A stretch of DNA of 64,000 nucleotides from Daphnia pulex (Eukaryota > Arthropoda > Branchiopoda > Diplostraca > Daphniidae), in contig NC_060025.1 in the NCBI RefSeq assembly GCF_021134715.1, forward strand, positions 8,866,001 through 8,930,000. Reading direction: 5' to 3'. Made by a program: the position numbers and the translations under genes. The notes under the pieces are model-generated. The model made no database searches and was not told where the DNA came from. It was given only the letters and a program-made list of their open reading frames with translations. Shown here piece after piece: positions 1 through 10,987 of this stretch (its first letter is position 1; each line of letters begins with the position of its first letter).

Positions 1-757
1 GTCCTGTGTCTGAATTCAAAATCAATGATCGAGCATTTGATTGTCCTTGACTGTTGTTGAATCTTCTTTCTTCCCCAACAATGCGAGCACGCAGTGCTTC
101 CATTGTTCTATCAGCGTCAGGGAGATTGTCCCAAATGGACGTCAGATTGGCAAATCGTTCAGGAAGGCTACACAAAATGGTAGTGATGAGGTGGTGTTCT
201 GACACCTAGATTAACCAGAAATGGAGATCAACAAAGACTGCATAAGACACAACTCAGAAAACAAAGTGATAAAGATATGTATCAGTTACCATCACTCCAA
301 GATCATTGAGTTCAGCGGCTTTGGATTCTAATTCAGTGATGTGAATCATGATATCTTGGTTGTCGACTGGTCTCAGATTCATGAAGTCTCTGTGTAAGAG
401 ATGTTTGTTGTCTGCAGCCCGTTGAAGATATTGGGTTTCCAACCGAGTCCACATGTCGTAGCTAGTTCTACAGTTGAGAAGTGCCAACTTTCTAGTCTCA
501 TCACAGCAATTGAATATGAGAAATCTGCCGTAGCAATCAGTTGTCTTCCATTGATTGATCAATTCCTGGTTGGTGACTACACGAAGATCTCCTTCACCAG
601 CAAAGATTTCTTGAGGTTCGTTGTCTTCTCCTTGAATGAATTGTCTCAGTTGTTTGAGAGTAAACAACATTTCCATGTTGTGTTTCCACGTAGTGAATTG
701 AGTTCCATCAAACTTTCTTAAATGCTTTATAGCATCCAAAGAGTAGTTTTGAGCCAT
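1..757 (-). mobile_element. Copia-type retrotransposon gag region (partial, runs off window)
   Basis: The minus-strand frame starting at 757 reads as a Copia-family Gag N-terminal region of the UBN2/DUF4219 type, with the typical order F-D-G-T-x-F-x-x-W then a Trp/Leu-rich helix and L-E-x-x-Y. In the family, Gag forms the RNA-containing capsid of the element. The frame is interrupted at 206-289 by an 84-bp stretch with GT...AG ends; the same family resemblance resumes at 205 and continues to the window edge at base 1, so pol and the 3' LTR are not visible here. Immediately upstream on the minus strand are a primer-binding site and an LTR. Whether the copy is active cannot be judged from this part. 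An alternative is a domesticated gag gene, but the LTR and primer site argue for a retrotransposon. Confidence 0.85.
206..289 (-). other. Candidate intron inside Copia gag
   Basis: On the minus strand the codon ATG is followed by GTAACTG at 289 and the segment ends TCTAG at 206. Removing 84 bp joins two gag-like segments in phase 0. Without removal the frame ends in a stop codon within the segment. It may be a true intron, since splicing is used by some Copia elements, or a small insertion that mimics one. Confidence 0.55.
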
Positions 758-787
758 TCTGATAAGTTCGTTAACGGTATGGCGAAA

Positions 788-802
788 CCTGGGCCCATAA
801 CC
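788..802 (-). promoter_or_regulatory. Retrotransposon primer-binding site
   Basis: Read on the minus strand this is GGTTATGGGCCCAGG, lying directly after the LTR end that finishes in TTAACA. It matches the form of primer sites in Copia elements that pair with an internal part of initiator methionine tRNA to start reverse transcription. Its position between LTR and gag is the expected one. Confidence 0.7.
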
Positions 803-855
803 TGTTAAGACACAAATTATCAGAGAAGAGTTTTGTCAGTTTGAATACTCGCGTA
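803..855 (-). repeat. Copia 5' LTR, downstream fragment
   Basis: This is the 3' end of the element's 5' LTR on the minus strand, ending in CA next to the primer-binding site. It is cut at 855 by the foldback element; the rest of the LTR resumes at 8676. The last eight bases, CTCGCGTA (848-855), are repeated at 8676-8683 as the target-site duplication. Confidence 0.7.
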
Positions 856-1336
856 GGCATGTAGACACTAGAACGTATTACCACTAGAACTTTAAGAATC
901 CGACACTAGAACGCGACACTAGAACTACAAATTTTTTAACGCGTCACTAGAACGCGGCACTAGAACTTCAAGATTTTAGGGCCGACACTAGAACTTATCA
1001 ACCCCGACACTAGAACGCGACGCTAGAACGGCGACACTAGAACGGCAACAGGGCCGACACTAGAACGGCGACATTAGAACGCGACGCCAGAACGGCGACA
1101 CTAGAACGCGACACTAGAACGGCGACACTAGAACGGCGACACTAGAACGGCAGCCGGGCCGACACTAGAACGGCAGCCAGGCCGACACTAGAACGGCAGC
1201 CGGGCCGACACTAGAACGGCAGTCGGGCCGACACTAGAACGGCGACACTAGAACGGCGACGCTAGAACGGCAGTAATTTCAGGGCCGACACTAGAACGGC
1301 GATAATATTAACGGCGTCACTAGAAAAACGTCACCC
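856..1336 (+). repeat. Left terminal inverted repeat of foldback element
   Basis: Made of about 25 imperfect copies of the core ACACTAGAAC separated by short GC-rich linkers such as GGCG, GCG or GGCAGCCGGGCCG. The inverse copy is at 8195-8675. The inner boundary at TCACCC (1331-1336) is sharp: beyond it the two sides diverge completely. Confidence 0.93.
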
Positions 1337-1581
1337 TAAAAGAGGATGTTGCGATCGGTTGTTAATATAAATAGAGGGAAATTTACAAAAAGAATCCAAG
1401 ATCGGATGAAATAAAAACAAAAAAAATCATCTTTCTTGAATGTGGATTAAGTAACATCAACAGTTTTTTTTTTACTCTTTTGATTGTATTTAGGCCTACA
1501 TCATTACACATCATCGTTTTTGTTGGGCAAAGTATCAGGATTAATAAAATAGAATGAAAAAGAAGTTTCGATTGTGCAGAA

Positions 1582-2586
1582 TTGTTTCTCAGTAAATGGT
1601 CTTCTGTAGAATTGCTTTATAGCATAGTTGAGAAAATATCCGAGATACTTCGGCGCCCATTAAACTCGATTCCGGAAGCAATCATTATTTTCACTGGACT
1701 TTTGTCCACAGCTTTCCTAGGGAGGCTTTTAAAAGCGCATGAATGGCTTGGAATGTTAACCGTCATCATGGGTCTGAGTGTGGTGGGCTCTTCCGATTTC
1801 ATCTTTGGCTCTGGTAGCAGCAACAACTCAATCAACAGCATTATCACTGGTGATCTGCTGATTGTTATGGCGCAAATCGTTACAGCCAGCCAAATGGTAT
1901 GGGAAGAGAAATTTGTTACCAAACACAATGTGCCATTGTTGCAGGCCGTCGGCTGGGAGGGTAATTTTGGTTTTGTAACCCTGTCCCTCTTGCTTATTCC
2001 TATGTATTTCCTTCGTGTGGGACCTCCATTTAGCTCTAATCCTCGTATGCTCCTTGAAGATGCTCTGGATGGTTTCATCCAAATGCGTAATAACCCAATG
2101 ATTATTCTCGCCATGTCAGGTATTTATTTTCTATTGTTTTTCAGCCTTCAATCCCTCATTGTCATTTCTTTCTAGGTACTGTGATAAGTATCGCATTTTT
2201 TTATTTCGCTGGTGTCAGCGTCACAAAGGAATTGTCAGCGACCACTCGTATGGTTCTGGATTCGGTACGAACGCTTGTTATTTGGAGCGTAAGTCTATCT
2301 CTTCAATGGCAACAATTTTATTGGCCTCAGGTATGAATCATATATAAATTAGTTTTACCGATTAAATACTAATCAAAACTTTGTAAAGAAAAATCTAATT
2401 AATGTGACGCTTTTATTACAGATTATTGGATTTGCTTTGCTTGTGATGGGCATGGGCTTGTACAATAACATTATCAACGCTTCGATTTGCAAGTGCCGCC
2501 GCGGATCGGACTCGGAGCCACTTTTAGGGGTTAATGAAGACCAATCCATCAATGAGGAAGAAGGAAGACCTAGTGTTATCCACTAG
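1582..2586 (+). pseudogene. SLC35F6-like transporter, captured 3' part
   Basis: Three exons (open frame to 2119, 2176-2330, 2422-2586) with GT-AG introns of 56 and 91 bp encode the C-terminal two thirds of an SLC35F6 (drug/metabolite transporter superfamily) protein. Family-like landmarks are IIIFTGLLSTAFLGR, ITGDLLIVMAQI, EEKFVTKHNV, VTKELSATTRMVLDS and a final IIGFALLVMGMGLYN helix, followed by a short acidic tail and stop at 2584. In the family this is a multi-pass membrane protein reported in lysosomes and mitochondria. Resemblance starts only near 1671, so roughly the first hundred residues and the normal start are missing. The remaining frames carry no stop or frameshift. It lies inside the foldback element, so I read it as a captured fragment; a short expressed protein cannot be excluded. 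Confidence 0.75.
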
Positions 2587-3068
2587 TCTCGCAATATTAT
2601 TTTTCTCTTCGTCAAAGTTTCTCTATATGCTTTTCTCAATTCATAGCGGTAACTCCTCATATTTTTTTTCCTTTTTTCCTCCAAACGACGGAAAATTTGC
2701 AATCGTTTCGTTACTAGTGCAGTCTCGTTCAGCAAAATTAATGCGTATTTTAAAAAAATGAATTGGGACGAGAATTATTTCCTGTTGGTTTCATATCGTG
2801 GAACTACCAGATTCTCTTTCATCGTCTGTCTTTCATTAAATGGCGGGTCTTCCTTGATGAAAATTAACAATAGATTATCGTGTGTAGGCGATTGATGTTT
2901 ATCTTGTTGATTATCTCCTTATAAACAATGAAAAAATTAGGAACTACCACGTCGGGTTTATTGTGGAAAAGACTAGACAATACTAATTATACGAATGCAC
3001 AGATTTTACAACCATCCTAACTGTTGTTACTTTTTGTCCAACGAACACGTCCGATAATCCTTTATAGT

Positions 3069-4676
3069 TTAGGAAAAGAAGAAGAAGTAGACCGAGTCGA
3101 GAACAAGGCGCAAATCAAACATACCGCGTCTAGGCACTTCACTTATAATTTGATTCAATCTGTGTCTTGCAAGTCCTTTGGGCGTGTCATCGTCAGCATC
3201 GGCACCACTTAAAAAAAATATAAATTTAACAACTGAAGTGTGAGCAATATAGCAAATCTATTATTAAATACCTCGCTCGGACGGCAAACTGTGAGACCAA
3301 AAACTTTGAAAGATCTTCCAAAATAGGCTGAGAGTGGAGAGAGACGAATTGTTGTCGGCAGATCTGAAATTTAAAAAAAAAAAAAATACAGGGGAAAGAT
3401 GAATAAACAACAAATCTGGAATTCAAGGTTTTTTAAATATCACCTTATTCATTTCTGCCACAGTGCAAGGGTGAGTCCAGAAACAATCGTGAATGGACGC
3501 AACAGTGATGCCTTTTCGTTGGCAATAGAGCGCCGTTAGCATCATGTGGCTCGAGTCCGAGGAGTGAATAAAGTTTGGTGGGAATGCGTTGCGTTGTTTA
3601 ATCGCATTCGGTCGACTGTCAACATAAACTATTAGAATTTCTGGGAATGATAAAAAAAAAATACCCAATTTACATTGCTTCGTAAGGATTATTGTTGTAC
3701 GACTGCACAACTGGTAACCCAATCGGAGTGATCCATTCGACACTTTCTCCGGCGACGGTTGAAATCAATTTAGCACTTTCAGTAAACCAGTCTTGAATAT
3801 CTTTAGCCGACGTAAACCTTGTAAACTTTGAAATGTTTTGTCAGCTAAATAAACAGATTCAACTTGAACTTGTTCAGGTGTTAGATTCGGTAGTTCTGTT
3901 TAGGCAGAAGCCAATGAAGTTAGTAATTTACCCAAAAATATCAGAATCGTGTACTGTACACCACAAAAATTATGTACCTTTAAGCTGTTTGGAAATTTGT
4001 AATCGGGCACCGTATTACCGCGTGACACCGTATACTGTCGTCATTACTGTTTGCTTGATGATCTTTCGATTAATCAGTCCAGCAAGAAGTTGAGCAATTT
4101 CAACATTATTCGCAGCATCTTTGGAACGTTCCCTTTCAACCTATATTTAAAAAACAAAACAAAAAATTAATTCTCTATGTAAAAAGCAAACAATCGAAAG
4201 TATTGTGTACTATAGATTGGCCACGTTGCTGTAAACGTCTTGTGGTCTATCAGTCGGTGTTAAATTGACGCTTTCGGCTCCAACTGTATCTCGCCCTAAA
4301 GCTGCATAATGTTGTAATCCATTACACGATCCGTCTTGATGGATAGGTAAGTGACAAACATAAGCTTCCGGTCCTTCTGGACATCTTAATGCATTTGCGA
4401 CTTCCATACAAGCTGCTAAGGTTTGCCACGGTTCATCTGAATTGACCCACCATTGTCTTCCCTGTATTGTTGTTAAAGTTTCAACAGTTAAAAAAAAATA
4501 AATGATAATAAATCTTGGCAAGTCTAACCGTTAAAGGATTATCAGCTGAGTCGAGAATTTCCGGCATTATTTTCTCGGCATAGGCATGACGTTCACTAAT
4601 CGGCTCCCTTTTCTTCGTACCAGTCAAATATATCACATGCAGTTTTAACCAGTTGAAACCGTCAGCACCCAAAGGT
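3069..4676 (-). pseudogene. Mitochondrial RNA polymerase (POLRMT) C-terminal part, captured and broken
   Basis: Minus-strand exons encode the single-subunit (T7-like) polymerase domain of POLRMT, which transcribes mitochondrial DNA. Visible pieces in order are FNWLKLHVIYLTGTKKR (near 4640), WWVNSDEPWQTLAACME, HQDGSCNGLQHYAALGRD (motif A, catalytic Asp), KQTVMTTVYGVTR (fingers/motif B), GLPVVQSY, NAFPPNFIHSSDSSHMM, HDCFWTH (motif C, second catalytic Asp, near 3500) and the true C-terminus DSVYFFFS with stop at 3069-3071. The copy is damaged: an in-frame TAA at 4015-4017 splits the fingers motif and the frame slips near 3825. The N-terminal half is absent; upstream the frame runs directly into M13 peptidase sequence at about 4676. 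Several introns remain. It sits in the foldback element and is best read as captured cargo. Confidence 0.8.
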
Positions 4677-6960
4677 TTACGGGTTTCATTGTCCATCCAC
4701 TCGAGTTCGTCGATTATTTCCGAGAAAACGCTGCGGATATTTTTGACCATCTCGTTCATCGATTGGCGCCGCCTCTTCAAAATATTCGCGGACGTACATG
4801 GCGCCAACGGCATTGCCAAAACTGTAAACGAAAAATAAAAAGAGGACACGAGTTTAGTCCGGGTTAGTCAACAAGAAATAAACAAACAGAGAAAAGAGCA
4901 AAGGACAAAATGTGGCGGAATCAAATAAAAATGGGCGTGTCTTCTTCATCTTACATTTTGCCTTTTGATTTTTTGGCTCTGTGCCAGACAACAAACACAC
5001 AAAGAGGGATATGCAAATATAAAGAAAAATAAAATAAAAGACAAGTTTTGAATTAACGAGTTTCTTTTGGGATGAGGAGGAAGATTTGGTTACCTGCCGG
5101 ACACGAGGTAAGTGCACTCCTCCCAGTGGGGTTTTCGTTCAGTTGTGCAGGTCAAGACGGCGGAATATTTCAGCTGCAGATTTCTAGCAGCTTCGTTCAA
5201 GTAGCCGACAGACGCCGAGGAAACGCGCCACATCTAATAATTGACCAAAGTCCTTGAGAAAATCAAATCAAAATGTTGTGTTGTTAATGAAAAACCTCGT
5301 GAAAAACGCTGGATGATGATGGATGTTGTACCCTCTCAGGAGTTTTGGCCAGCAAATCAACCAGCTTGGGGAAATAGTCGGGCACATCGACAACGACGCG
5401 CTCGTTTTCCGTCAGGACGTGATGCGGGGCCAGGATCGTGTTCATGTAAGACCAGCCAAGGGATTTCGGGTAATTTGAGGCTCAATTCTTTAATAGTCAT
5501 GGGATTGTAAAGTTTGTTGGCATCACGGCGCTCCACCCTCGGCAAATTGATCTGTTTTTATTTTCGGTCGGGAAGGGTATAGCAATCAAAATTAATGATC
5601 CCGCCATTTTATTTTACTACGTACACAGCTTAGAGGGAGAAAAGGGAGAAAAGAGGCTTTGAAATAGAAGAATTACATTGGCATGCTTGATTTCAAATTC
5701 CAGCGCTTCCGTCTGTTGCTTGGTTGCGGTATCCTTATCCTTATCGCTCCCAGAAGTTGGCTAAACCGACTTGATAATCGAGGTAAGCTTTGACGTCCTT
5801 GTCTCCGAGACCTTTGATCAGATATTCCCGGCTCAGTCCCAGAGTGGCTTGATCCAACTGTCCCAACGAAATAATAAGCGAATCATCAACCATTCAATAT
5901 TTCTGACGAGGTGAAATGATGGCAATAGGGGCGAAATTATTTACGTCAATAATACGCGAAGTCGAGTTCTTCAGGTCGGTCGTGACGGAAAAGTCGACAA
6001 AGTAGTCGATCGAGTAGCCGGCCAGACGGAACTTGTAAATCGTCGTCGCCCCAGCTGTCGCCAACGACGACCGGCCAGCCGCCAAACTGGTCAAGGACCT
6101 CCTTGAGCGGCGCCAGGCCCACCTCCTCCGCCCGGGTCTTATTGTTCAAACACGACTGGAAGAGCTGCGATTCAAAACGGAATTATTTATCCATCCAGGC
6201 CGGCACATCAAAGAAGAAAGAGATGGTTTTAAATACGTACTTTCTTGATCAGCTTGAACGGCTCAGCAGCGTCCGTTTCTTTGGTGGGCCTCTCGATGAG
6301 CGACCGCAGCTGCTCCGTCACTTCGTCGCTAATCAAACTGAAAGTCGTCACGCTCGACTGGTCGTCCGGAATCACGTTCCTCGTTTCGAATCCGCCGCAA
6401 GCGAACGAGTAGAAATCCTCGCAAGGATTCACCGTCTTGTCCATATTTTTCAGGATCTCGGCCGCTATCGAGAATTCAAATTACTTGATTTTCACAAGGA
6501 AAGTAGATGGGACAAGTTAATTTGTACCTGCCAGGACGCAGCCGGAAGTGTTGCAAACGTTGCCGTTGGCGCTTTTGGCCGAAGGATCGGCGTCGGATTT
6601 GGTGGCCTTGTCCAAATCGAGAACTTTGTGACTGCTGACGGTAAAGGCTGCGGCAGAGGACGAGACCATGGCAAGAGTTTCACTATCGAACACTATTTCA
6701 AGATGGCAATGGGGATATTGGGGTTTATAAACAGATCAATCTCATCAAAAAAATAATAATTTAATAACCAAAAAATTGAGAATTGGAAAAATAGCCGAAC
6801 CTTTTGAGGGGTCGTTTTGCTGGCCTCGGTAGATGAAAGCGGCCATGGCGATAGCCAATCCGACGGCCACAAAGACGACGACGGTGGCGCAAAGGGATAG
6901 GCGTCACTCTAGACGAGTCCTGCGCTCCGCAGAAACAGTCAACTGGGAACCCAATTGGAT
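4677..6960 (-). pseudogene. M13 (neprilysin-like) peptidase N-terminal part, captured and broken
   Basis: Minus-strand exons follow the order of an M13 zinc metallopeptidase: a membrane anchor (CATVVVFVAVGLAIAMAAF, near 6850), NVCNTSGCVLA (6540-6570), NMDKTVNPCEDFYSFACGGF (near 6400), a stretch ending FGGWPVVVGDSW (6070), FRLAGYSIDYFVDFSVTTDL, LGLSREYLIKGLGDKDVKAY, NERVVVDVPDYFPKLVDLL, HWEECTYLVS, and FGNAVGAMYVREYFEEAA ending at ELEWMDNETRK. Family members cleave peptides outside the cell. The catalytic HExxH and ExxxD sites lie further on and are missing, replaced by POLRMT sequence. A TGA at 6904-6906 precedes the anchor, and frameshifts occur near 6045, 5765, 5455 and 4770, so no active enzyme can be made from this copy. 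Confidence 0.78.
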
Positions 6961-6999
6961 AAATTTTTCTTTTAATGAAAAGCCATGAGGAACTGCATA

Positions 7000-8194
7000 T
7001 CAGGCATTGGGTGATAGCTCGACGATGTAACAGGATCGATGCGATAGAATTTGCGATCGCAAGTTCCATTTCTGCCATATTTCTTACGTTCTTTAGGCTG
7101 TAGGGCGTAAGCGCGACACACACACACAATTCTTTTCTCCTTTCCAACACCACCACCAAACACACACTCAAATAGTTCGATGGCTTTTTCGGACAGAATG
7201 ACAGTCACAAAATTGTTCAATCACTAGTTGACATCTTGACGCAGTCGAGGTGATCACTTATTCAGGGGGCAAATCAACCATTGTGTGTGAATAGTGTTGG
7301 AATAAAAACAGATGGCCGTAAGACCAAGTCGACGTTTCATCCAGACTCGGTATGAGATTGTACTGAGCTTGATCATCAGTGGGTTTCTTTTTTTTAGGCA
7401 TATCACGTTAGAGAAACGTATTTTCGTTTTTTGCCGTTATATTTCATGGAATCCTCGGAATACATTCCAAGAACTATGTGATGTTTATGCGACGCATGTG
7501 CCTTTGTACAAGGCTTTGAAGACAGTATACTACAATCCATTTATACTTTCGTTATGCTATGAAAGGACATTCGACGAACGAGATGGCACTTGTTGTCTGA
7601 CGATCGAGGAAACATTATTCTCCAATGATTCGACCCGCTTCACCTGAGTGACCTGAAAAACCTTTTCAGAAGTAACCCTTACGTAACCTTTTAAGTCGGC
7701 CGTTCCGCCAATCCAAATTTACGGACTCCATCCTGCGCCTTGCACAATGCCGCCGTCCGACCGACACAGTAGAACCAGCCACTTTGGCCGACTCGGGTTG
7801 CCCTTAATCCCATCGACAACACTCCTCACTGGATAAATGTCGTGCTGAAGCTCACGGCTTGGCAGTTCGTCCAACTGTCCAAGTTGCAGACGGACAATTC
7901 CGATTTCTCACGAAGCCGGCAAAGTGTCAATTCTCCTCTGCTAATTGTTGCTCAATTGTGGTGTTAAGTCATGACAGCTGCCCAAGAATTCGTATTAGTT
8001 AGTTGGCTGGAATTGGTTTAATAAAAACAGTTTCTATTCCCATTTATATACTTGCTAGACTGTTGTTTGGTTTCTTTTGTATATGTATGCACCTAGAATT
8101 AGATTTAAATAAGGTGTTTTGCTGGAATCTAAGGGCGTTGTTTTACTCCCGTACTCTATAACATGCCCTATCTAACATGCCCTATTTTTCTTAC
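7000..8194. other. Unassigned interior of foldback element
   Basis: This holds an AT-poor stretch with a 111-codon plus-strand open frame (7312-7647) that I do not recognise, then about 300 bp (7690-7990) of GC-richer sequence that looks like degraded coding DNA but has stops in all frames. Other gene pieces are possible. No transposase motif was seen. Confidence 0.4.
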
Positions 8195-8675
8195 GGGTGA
8201 CGTTTTTCTAGTGACGCCGTTAATATTATCGCCGTTCTAGTGTCGGCCCTGAAATTACTGCCGTTCTAGCGTCGCCGTTCTAGTGTCGCCGTTCTAGTGT
8301 CGGCCCGACTGCCGTTCTAGTGTCGGCCCGGCTGCCGTTCTAGTGTCGGCCTGGCTGCCGTTCTAGTGTCGGCCCGGCTGCCGTTCTAGTGTCGCCGTTC
8401 TAGTGTCGCCGTTCTAGTGTCGCGTTCTAGTGTCGCCGTTCTGGCGTCGCGTTCTAATGTCGCCGTTCTAGTGTCGGCCCTGTTGCCGTTCTAGTGTCGC
8501 CGTTCTAGCGTCGCGTTCTAGTGTCGGGGTTGATAAGTTCTAGTGTCGGCCCTAAAATCTTGAAGTTCTAGTGCCGCGTTCTAGTGACGCGTTAAAAAAT
8601 TTGTAGTTCTAGTGTCGCGTTCTAGTGTCGGATTCTTAAAGTTCTAGTGGTAATACGTTCTAGTGTCGCTATGCC
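8195..8675 (-). repeat. Right terminal inverted repeat of foldback element
   Basis: Reverse complement of 856-1336 with 478 of 481 bases the same by direct reading. On this strand the core reads GTTCTAGTGT. Followed at once by the target duplication CTCGCGTA (8676-8683). Confidence 0.93.
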
Positions 8676-8683
8676 CTCGCGTA

Positions 8684-9600: not shown

Positions 9601-9883
9601 TGGTTGCGTAACGAGCGAGATAGCGTGTGAACGAAGGAAAGTGTTTTTATTTCGATACGTGCCTACAATTTTTACCGATTTTTTAAATATTTTGTCATCT
9701 AATTAAATTTTGAACGATTGAACAATGTTGGTTTAAACATAAACATTGATAATTTGTAATTTCTTTAAGTTAATGTCTAATATTTGTCCAATTAATTCTA
9801 AATAAAAGTTGACAAAATGCAATGCGAAAGAGTTGCAGGAGACTCAGTCTATATATAAGAGATGCAAATTAAGAAAAATAAAG

Positions 9884-10987
9884 ATGAAGTATCACCTCAA
9901 GATGGCATCCAAGTCTTTCTGTGAGGCGAAATCGAACCTACCGAAAAAAATGAATAATGTTTCACTACCAAACATGGAACCAGACTTTTCTAATCCAAAT
10001 CACCAATTGGATATTCCAGATTTTGAACGATTCCGATACCACCTCGATGAAGTTCAGCCAGAGCCAGATATTTCCTGGTACAGAGATCTCTTGCCATTTT
10101 TCGCATTTGGGTTCCTTATATCACTAATACCAACTCTGATATGTGGTCTAATGATCTTACTACCAGATTGCTACACAATGGAGGTTGTGTTCAGTATTTT
10201 GGGGTTTTTGCAGAAATTCAACGGGTCCAACTACGGATCGATCGTGACGATAATTCTGACGTCATACGCTTTTTCTAAGCAAAATGGCAAAGATGAACTG
10301 AGCGATCCGACTTCGTTGTTCAAAAAGGTTTATGTAAGCGAAAAAACACCAGAGACAAAAATAGCGAAGATGCGGGCCCTAACGGCGTATACAAAATTGA
10401 TGATTTATTACGCTCTTCCCAGGGATTTTTACCATGAAACCTTTGGCATCAATTACGAAAGTCTTTTAGTAGATTTGTATCAAAAACAACTTTTACCAAA
10501 AAGAGATTTTATAAGACTCAGAAAATTAGACATGAAACGACACGAACATCAAGTCGTTACGTTCATTGAAGAATTAATAGGAAAATGTGGTCCCGCAGAG
10601 GACGCCTTTTTGAAATTCCATGAGAATTTAAAGGTTTTAAAAAAAATGTTGCAGGATGATTTTCTGAGATATACATACAGTCCTGTTATGAAAATAATTT
10701 TGGTGTTTAGTTTTATAGGTTGTTTTAGCAGTTTTTCGAAGGTAAATTCTCTGCCTGATTTTGTAGACTCAGTTACCCTGAGTAATAATTTATTTTTTTT
10801 CATTTCGTATACGTGTTACTATCTTGGTGTGTATGCACTTGATGTTTTTGGAAAAGGTAATTACTTTTTCAATAAAATAATCAAAAAAAATTTGAATATA
10901 AAAAAGTATTACACGGAAATCGAAATGGATATATGGAACTGTGTGATCGATGGTTGCTGGGATTCAACGAGGGCTCTGGTGAGTTGA
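9884..10987 (+). CDS. Unrecognised intronless multi-pass membrane protein
   Basis: A single open frame of 367 codons from the first ATG (9884); a second ATG at 9902 is equally possible. I do not recognise the family. Hydrophobic segments suggest about four membrane helices: FFAFGFLISLIPTLICGLMI, a weaker pair around VVFSILGFL and SIVTIILTSYAF, IILVFSFIGCFSSF, and NLFFFISYTCYYLGVYAL. Between them lies a long Lys/Arg/Glu-rich soluble loop (about residues 150-270), and the tail is acidic and Trp/Cys-rich. The open frame also extends upstream of the ATG. Its lack of introns and AT-rich codons set it apart from its intron-rich neighbours, which could mean a retrocopy or a lineage-specific gene. 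The end is near a GTGAGT, so a further exon cannot be excluded. Confidence 0.55.
   Translation: MKYHLKMASKSFCEAKSNLPKKMNNVSLPNMEPDFSNPNHQLDIPDFERFRYHLDEVQPEPDISWYRDLLPFFAFGFLISLIPTLICGLMILLPDCYTMEVVFSILGFLQKFNGSNYGSIVTIILTSYAFSKQNGKDELSDPTSLFKKVYVSEKTPETKIAKMRALTAYTKLMIYYALPRDFYHETFGINYESLLVDLYQKQLLPKRDFIRLRKLDMKRHEHQVVTFIEELIGKCGPAEDAFLKFHENLKVLKKMLQDDFLRYTYSPVMKIILVFSFIGCFSSFSKVNSLPDFVDSVTLSNNLFFFISYTCYYLGVYALDVFGKGNYFFNKIIKKNLNIKKYYTEIEMDIWNCVIDGCWDSTRALVS

Follow-up and report, generated by a model that had tools for sequence, protein, structure and literature searches.

Gene shuffling by transposons is familiar in plants and has rarely been documented in animals. Plant Pack-MULEs and Pack-TYPE elements are non-autonomous terminal-repeat elements that carry gene fragments, fuse pieces of several genes and occur in multiple copies; the element described here differs from them in its animal host, its longer cargo (an interior of 6,858 bp) and its foldback-type ends. 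The closest known animal case comes from Drosophila melanogaster: the multicopy Pack-TIR (Pack-MULE) Ssk-FB4, which is polymorphic in fly populations. A survey of 100 animal genomes reported only four multicopy Pack-TIR cases (PMC8277862). Ssk-FB4 has long repetitive foldback-type ends, encloses host gene DNA with introns, exists in several copies with distinct target site duplications (TSDs), includes one tandemly duplicated locus and has no identified transposase, all of which is true of our element as well (PMC8277862). Tm1, a Mutator/Foldback element of root-knot nematodes, has ends made of a ~14-bp tandem motif with short unlike tips outside the inverted repeat, one kind per end, and is mostly non-autonomous, again as here; host sequence within it is only suggested (a histone hairpin) (PMC3169594). 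Turmoil-1 of C. elegans likewise carries host protein-coding sequence inside an animal transposon, although there the host sequences sit in the terminal repeats themselves (PMC2572040).

The window analysed here comprises 64,000 bp of the Daphnia pulex genome (GCF_021134715.1, contig NC_060025.1, positions 8,866,001 to 8,930,000) and contains an element that spans positions 856-8675 (Table 1). As originally noted, its 481-bp inverted ends are near-identical (478 of 481 positions alike, three mismatches), and an 8-bp duplication lies flush with the element on both sides. The inverted arms at 850-1336 and 8195-8681 are 99% complementary. Mostly 14- and 23-bp tandem units with the core CGACACTAGAACGG make up the left repeat, which is the structure by which foldback-type elements are recognised: long ends composed of tandem sub-repeats. 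Once joined, the flanks of the element align straight through the joint, for 675 bp, with a Copia copy on C7 that has no insertion there and so represents an empty paralogous site.

Table 1. Features of the window element and its immediate flanks.
Feature	Position	Strand	Remarks
Copia gag ORF (flank, outside element)	254..835	-	belongs to retroelement hit by element insertion
TSD, left copy	848..855		CTCGCGTA
Left terminal repeat	856..1336	+	A-type tip GGCATGTA
Captured INTS2 3' end	1461..1682	-	donor C11:804014-804224; 13.9% substitutions
Captured block, SLC35F/POLRMT pair	1682..4678		donor C2:540993-543969; 2.8% substitutions
ORF with in-frame fusion of M13 and POLRMT exon pieces	4481..4867	-	joint at 4678-4680
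Captured 5' part of M13 (neprilysin-type) peptidase gene	4680..6928	-	donor C11:431539-433812; 5.6% substitutions
Captured DNA upstream of CAF17/GCV_T-domain gene (presumably IBA57-like)	7116..7357	+	donor C12:2208632-2208876; 4.5% substitutions
Captured teneurin exon piece	7694..7874	+	donor C12:8664785-8664965; 10.9% substitutions
Captured piece from C11 locus	7897..8171		donor C11:812725-813014; 9.0% substitutions
Right terminal repeat	8195..8675	-	B-type tip GGCATAGC
TSD, right copy	8676..8683		CTCGCGTA

The same cargo is found at two other places in the genome, on C8 and C10, each with an 8-bp duplication of its own. The C8 copy (TSD GAAAGTAA) differs from the window element by 10 substitutions in 7,753 positions and is 99.7% identical in the interior. 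C10 holds a tandem pair (outer TSD GTAACATG) that is 96.8-98.9% identical to the window element in three blocks; no flush duplication was found around either member of the pair taken singly. In substitutions, the copies are closer to one another than to their donors. That these ends enclose this cargo again at other loci, between different duplications, goes beyond chance and disposes of the case, raised at the outset, that the end might occur nowhere else. Could the unit nevertheless be an ordinary segmental duplication, or an assembly artefact, with inverted repeats arisen by chance? The C10 tandem pair, whose members differ at 1 of 7,685 positions, might be read in this way, but given distinct flush duplications, an empty site, precise ends and a chimeric joint that recurs in JGI-sourced proteins on other contigs, we find this explanation scarcely credible.

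Searching by the tips, we located 12 two-ended elements with the same ends, every one of which carries host-gene DNA. They fall into four interior types; besides the cargo of the window element, these comprise Argonaute, receptor guanylate cyclase together with an FkbM methyltransferase, and neurofibromin. The original prediction of a mobile gene-capture family, with the same ends around different interiors, is thereby supported. Each of the 12 pairs a GGCATRTA (A) tip with a GGSATAGC (B) tip, A+A and B+B combinations being absent (0 of either), and 3.0-kb copies with these ends have also been mobile. At 11 insertion sites of two-ended elements the flush duplication measures 8 bp in seven cases and 9 bp in one (L025), while none was found at three (L018, L019 and L024); the corresponding figures are 9-10 bp for Ssk-FB4 (PMC8277862) and 8-10 bp, mostly 9 bp, for Tm1 (PMC3169594). 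The middle 2.2 kb of L020 is a separate repeat nested inside the element. L021, a one-ended relative, might be taken for a full element because it shares a 98% identical stretch with a region at C8:463510; that stretch, however, begins only at query position 2263 and contains other repeats as well, resembling a segmental duplication.

What does the window element carry? Donor loci were recognised through DNA identity, introns included, and by this measure the cargo is a mosaic from at least six loci, each still present elsewhere in the genome, to which ~6.1 of the 6.9 kb of interior can be assigned; no donor was found by DNA identity for 6929-7115 and most of 7358-7693. Ssk-FB4, in comparison, involves one gene and one lineage (PMC8277862), whereas the present family has four cargo classes and a single element draws on six donor loci or more. 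The family ends have no match at donor loci L029-L035, and none of the ends listed falls at the other donor coordinates. Host DNA thus lies between the two terminal repeats of one element, the parental loci lack such repeats and contain introns (so that the cargo is not a retrocopy), and duplications accompany mobility after capture, the combination by which a Pack-TIR is defined. Three cargo pieces had been proposed initially, from SLC35F6-like, M13 and POLRMT genes. All three are supported by Pfam matches above cut-off (SLC35F at 1558-2175 on the plus strand; RNA_pol at 3423-3764, 4210-4530 and 4481-4867 and Peptidase_M13_N at 4481-4867 and 6229-6480, all on the minus strand) and by DNA identity to donors, introns included, although more than three pieces are present and the evidence for the first stops at the level of the SLC35F family. 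Nor are the SLC35F and POLRMT pieces separate: the C2 block (C2:540993-543969) is one 3-kb unit holding the 3' parts of two convergent neighbours, the SLC35F gene (sense +) and the mitochondrial RNA polymerase gene (sense -), along with introns and intergenic DNA. Positions 1337-1682 were at one point considered an element backbone common to L016, L033 and L034; this was rejected, and since L033 turned out to be the INTS2 gene, 1461-1682 is cargo too.

Frameshifting gaps break three of the seven captured exon pieces in the window copy, and the parents' proteins are therefore probably not produced from the cargo. In the M13::POLRMT fusion, a 2-base gap upstream of the joint disrupts the M13 part in the window copy; the same in-frame joint is present in two JGI-sourced proteins, P0050 and P0051, on other contigs. 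Despite the gaps, the way in which the exons differ from those of the donors suggests constraint (15.5 N and 24.5 S differences; pN/pS 0.18). This pattern, together with the lower divergence among copies than between copies and donors, would fit a scenario in which a sister lineage acquired the cargo and hybridisation then introduced it into this genome, much of the donor divergence predating capture. However, constraint on the donor branch alone accounts for part of the signal, and we consider such an origin unlikely.

In keeping with the initial remark that no transposase was visible, Pfam scans of 12 of the 19 ORFs of at least 80 aa in the window element detected no domain of a transposase, and 2 ORFs of L018, 5 of L019, 7 of L020 and 3 of L025 likewise gave none. 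These scans covered selected ORFs in the window element, L014, L015, L016, L018-L023 and L025, leaving out L011-L013, L024 and L026-L028. The sole transposase-like hint is a weak HTH_Tnp_4 match in the one-ended L021 (19.8 bits against a cut-off of 27), a possible transposase remnant. Among the matches listed, neither the MULE domains (at least 55 genomic places) nor the P-type domains (at least 77 places) fall on the inner side of a family end at distances up to 15 kb; on the outer side, one MULE place is 9.1 kb from an end and two P places are 3.9 and 13.0 kb away. For Merlin, an IS1595-type transposase (at least 20 places), no listed match comes as close as 15 kb to an end on either side. 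Looking for an autonomous copy with a transposase, as proposed at the outset, thus yielded none, either among the selected ORFs or by way of these three transposase families. The element might instead be autonomous and belong to a little-known superfamily whose transposase, split among exons and escaping recognition, lies in the interior parts that match no donor or in the other seven ORFs, and Pfam scans can miss intron-split transposases; yet host loci make up most of the interior, the scanned ORFs of five elements yielded no domain, and the 3.0-kb copies moved as well, which makes this alternative very improbable.

Elements of the hAT superfamily produce 8-bp TSDs with an nTnnnnAn preference and have tips of the CAG/TAG type. 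Three of the seven 8-bp duplications fit both positions of that motif (chance ~0.016 at 0.29 per base); the tips GGCATRTA and GGSATAGC are of a different kind, and no hAT transposase was seen in the ORFs scanned. The architecture is most like that of Tm1/Foldback Mutator-type elements, and, as a diverged MULE partner may exist although no listed MULE domain sits between the ends, we liken the family to them (it works like them) rather than filing it as a MULE member; Tm1 differs in its tip and motif sequences and has a known Phantom-type MULE transposase (PMC3169594). The ends, the 8-bp duplications flush with them, the empty site in a paralogous sequence, the extra copies and the donor loci where such ends were not found are all observed, and with high confidence we regard the unit as a Pack-type DNA transposon that is non-autonomous, was active recently and has foldback-like ends.

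How might the cargo have been acquired? A transposase supplied from elsewhere would recognise the unlike A and B tips and the 14-bp repeats, excise the element and insert it with a stagger of ~8 bases. While the element is replicated or excised, its repeat-rich ends may stall or break, in which case repair by template switching would copy host DNA in, leaving near-blunt joints, and later transposition would multiply the new composite. This proposed route is based on two joints read by eye, one with 1 filler base (C2/M13) and the other with a 1-base overlap (at 1682). Divergence is unequal from donor to donor, which points to host DNA having entered in several rounds. Fork switching coupled to transposition has a serious competitor, if one we place somewhat short of probable: gap filling, independent of transposition, may have brought the cargo into a terminal-repeat element already in place, transposition following only later. 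Two near-blunt joints are consistent with it, and INTS2 sequence in L016, L033 and L034 extends beyond the position of the changeover to the C2 block in the window element, as though a newer capture had been inserted into an older one; a cargo-free element, on the other hand, was seen at none of these sites. Tan et al. attribute most single-copy animal Pack-TIRs to gap filling but put multicopy cases down to fork switching plus transposition (PMC8277862).

The suggestion that the unit might be a previously undescribed vehicle for gene fragments has to be qualified: animal Pack-TIRs, including the Foldback one Ssk-FB4, have been published (PMC8277862), but among open-licence PubMed Central papers we found none describing such elements in Daphnia, nor any follow-up work on animal Pack-TIRs. 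The unusual part is the multi-donor, multi-lineage, multicopy cargo in a crustacean host. A bolder and rather doubtful reading, offered tentatively, is that an ends-only family adds host DNA in repeated rounds, every complete member found being a gene collector, and makes exon-shuffled chimeras such as the in-frame M13::POLRMT that spread through crustacean populations, with part of the cargo perhaps derived from a sister lineage via hybridisation.

The wider question is how terminal-repeat transposons acquire host genes, and whether animal genomes have been shaped by them as plant genomes have. Here, the same ends carry four cargo classes in one compact genome. Since the donors are extant and some copies near-identical, the captures are open to study as regards their order, age and joints, and living populations could be examined for new insertions.

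The element at 856-8675 is real and mobile. Its left inverted arm (850-1336) is 99% complementary to the right one (8195-8681), the two 481-bp ends proper differ from each other at three positions, and the 8-bp target site duplication (TSD) CTCGCGTA lies flush on both sides, all much as the original prediction had it. The ends consist largely of 14- and 23-bp tandem units with the core CGACACTAGAACGG, and we therefore call the element foldback-type in structure. It sits inside a Copia-type retroelement; its flanks, joined with one copy of the TSD, align across the joint for 675 bp (89.5%) with a Copia copy on C7 that lacks the interruption; this empty site (L015) is paralogous rather than orthologous. 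A 393-residue open frame (9806-10987, plus strand), membrane-protein-like by eye and without a Pfam match, lies some 1.1 kb downstream.

Host of the insertion and cargo of the window element, with donor contigs of the same genome; divergence counts substitutions only, element versus donor locus
Feature	Position in window	Donor	Substitutions/aligned bases	Divergence
Copia-type retroelement gag (host of insertion)	254-835			
INTS2 3' end	1461-1682	C11	29/208	13.9%
SLC35F and mitochondrial RNA polymerase, 3' parts	1682-4678	C2:540993-543969	82/2,960	2.8%
M13 peptidase gene	4680-6928	C11	125/2,217	5.6%
DNA upstream of CAF17/GCV_T-domain gene	7116-7357	C12	11/242	4.5%
Teneurin exon	7694-7874	C12	19/175	10.9%
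Host piece	7897-8171	C11:812.7 kb	24/268	9.0%

Pieces of SLC35F6-like, M13 peptidase and mitochondrial RNA polymerase (POLRMT) genes had been predicted as the cargo. All three are there, the first of them as an SLC35F-family gene, but the cargo does not stop at three, for it also holds INTS2, CAF17/GCV_T-upstream, teneurin and C11:812.7-kb pieces. SLC35F and POLRMT are convergent genes at the C2 donor, and one captured block covers both. Segment 7566-7646 matches C5 more weakly (84%), the genome comparison found no donor for 6929-7115 and most of 7358-7693, and no family end has a match at loci L029-L035, donor loci among them. The spread of divergence suggests that host DNA was captured in several rounds, the order of capture being a mere suggestion because exon and non-coding rates differ. 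A second INTS2-like region (L034, C10:7395001-7405000), which shares 86.6% identity with the C11 gene along 3.1 kb, may be a pseudogene or belong to another element. The INTS2 ORF of this genome is 91% identical to a Daphnia pulex protein (P0022) along 44% of the query, and its best hit reaches 95%; this fits a Daphnia-like host.

On the minus strand an M13 exon is fused in frame to a POLRMT exon (...DNETR/KPLGADG...); this chimeric exon is open in the C10 copy and broken in the window copy by a 2-base gap upstream. The same joint occurs in two JGI-sourced proteins and is therefore not peculiar to this assembly: P0050 (longest contig 1,543 bases) is identical at 105 of 106 residues and matches both Pfam families, while P0051 (longest contig 4,254 bases) is a variant diverging downstream. 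Their sources are likely metagenome samples of other individuals. Three of seven exon pieces carry frameshifting gaps in the window copy, as do two of seven on C10, so that intact proteins from the captured exons are unlikely. Despite these gaps, the seven pieces of the window copy show 15.5 non-synonymous against 24.5 synonymous differences from the donors (pN/pS 0.18), and much of the cargo divergence therefore probably arose before capture or along the donor branch. One reading of divergence and coding state is that the cargo was introgressed.

Searching the genome (133.19 Mb, 13 contigs) with the left end, a check proposed at the outset, gave 38 matches, many partial. The whole interior recurs on C8 at 99.7% in opposite orientation (10 substitutions in 7,753 aligned bases) and twice on C10 at 96.8-98.9% in three blocks (1.5% difference from the window copy). 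These copies have other TSDs, GAAAGTAA on C8 and GTAACATG on C10, which bears out the predicted mobile family. The C8 copy's tip lies upstream of a core-histone ORF (L011:802-1230, minus strand; H2B-like by eye), 35 bases from its ATG. The C10 copies (L012, L013) form a tandem pair at C10:6611317-6626696 with one mismatch in 7,685 bases; ATGAAATGAA joins the two across a 10-base spacer. The 8-bp duplication lies outside the pair, and neither copy taken singly has a flush duplication; the tandem arose either by duplication after insertion or by joint transposition.

The ends have two tip types. Exact searches, which elements with altered tips escape, placed the A tip GGSATRTAGACA at 62 sites and the B tip GGSATAGCGACA at 36 (reversed-pattern control 11 for each). 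Convergent A-B pairs less than 12 kb apart number 14, two of which are extra B ends beyond L019, leaving 12 two-ended elements; one-ended relatives (L014-L017, L021-L023) were examined and left out of this count. There are no convergent A-A or B-B pairs, no same-strand A-B pairs, and two divergent A-B pairs, one of them formed where the two C10 copies meet. Flush 8-bp TSDs are present at 7 of 11 insertion sites, the C10 tandem counted once (CTCGCGTA, GAAAGTAA, GTAACATG, TTGGAAAC, CTAAAGAA, CCTCCATT, CTTGGAAG); L025 has a 9-bp flush duplication (TTTTTCCAG), and L018, L019 and L024 have none. At and past the right-hand end of L019, three B-type ends (C8:7157970, 7160074 and 7162177) point the same way at intervals of about 2.1 kb and may form a tandem array that takes in an element end. 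A separate tandem array of a ~779-bp unit (L016:1-4577), copies ~98-99% alike, lies beyond the one-ended element that carries INTS2.

All 12 two-ended elements (the window, C8 and two C10 copies, L018-L020, L024-L028) carry host-gene DNA, and the anticipated copies with the same ends and different interiors are among them. L018 holds Argonaute PIWI exons (86% to C6:5186217); L019 holds parts of two genes, one for a receptor-type guanylate cyclase (87% to C2:11404801) and one for an FkbM methyltransferase (78% to C7:11835618), both domains having been found on the donors. Neurofibromin-gene DNA is carried by L020, L024, L025 and L026 (86.9-92.0% per aligned piece to C12:6958578-6959893); L027 and L028 were assigned to this cargo through their identity to L024 (99.2% over 3.9 kb) and L025 (96.8% over 3.05 kb).

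We found no account of this element in the open-licence literature; its predicted novelty as a vehicle needs qualifying, animal Pack-TIRs being known already. Tan et al. 2021 (PMC8277862) report 370 in 100 animal genomes, only four of them multicopy and none in insect reference genomes, with Ssk-FB4 from fly populations as an additional case. To enter their pipeline an interior had to measure 100 to 5,000 bp and have a unique parent of 80-120% of the length; a 6.9-kb mosaic like the window element would therefore have been screened out. An arthropod MULE survey (PMC13359780) treats capture in general terms and, in the main text available, does not mention Daphnia.

What moves the family? As predicted, no transposase is visible: none of the selected ORFs scanned has a transposase domain. 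A weak HTH_Tnp_4 match below cut-off in a one-ended relative (L021:6129-6515, plus strand) may be what remains of a transposase, or may come from an unrelated transposon next to that relative. Genome-wide, transposase domains occur at no fewer than 55 MULE, 20 Merlin and 77 P-type places. Within 15 kb of a family end none of these is on its inner side; on the outer side there are one MULE and two P places. The proposed search for an autonomous copy, made in the selected ORFs and with these three families, found none. The P-type domains are many (for example C2:9420344), one of them in an 829-residue open frame, and suggest a genome with abundant P-type transposons. The TSD preference of hAT elements is fitted by three of the seven 8-bp TSDs (chance ~0.016), but the family tips have no hAT-like look. 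With its ~14-bp repeats, its short unlike tips and, where present, a TSD of 8 to 9 bp, the family resembles Tm1 (PMC3169594; TSD 8-10 bp), whose transposase is a Phantom MULE. We consider it most likely that a MULE-type transposase moves the family in trans, with no claim that the family itself belongs to the MULEs.
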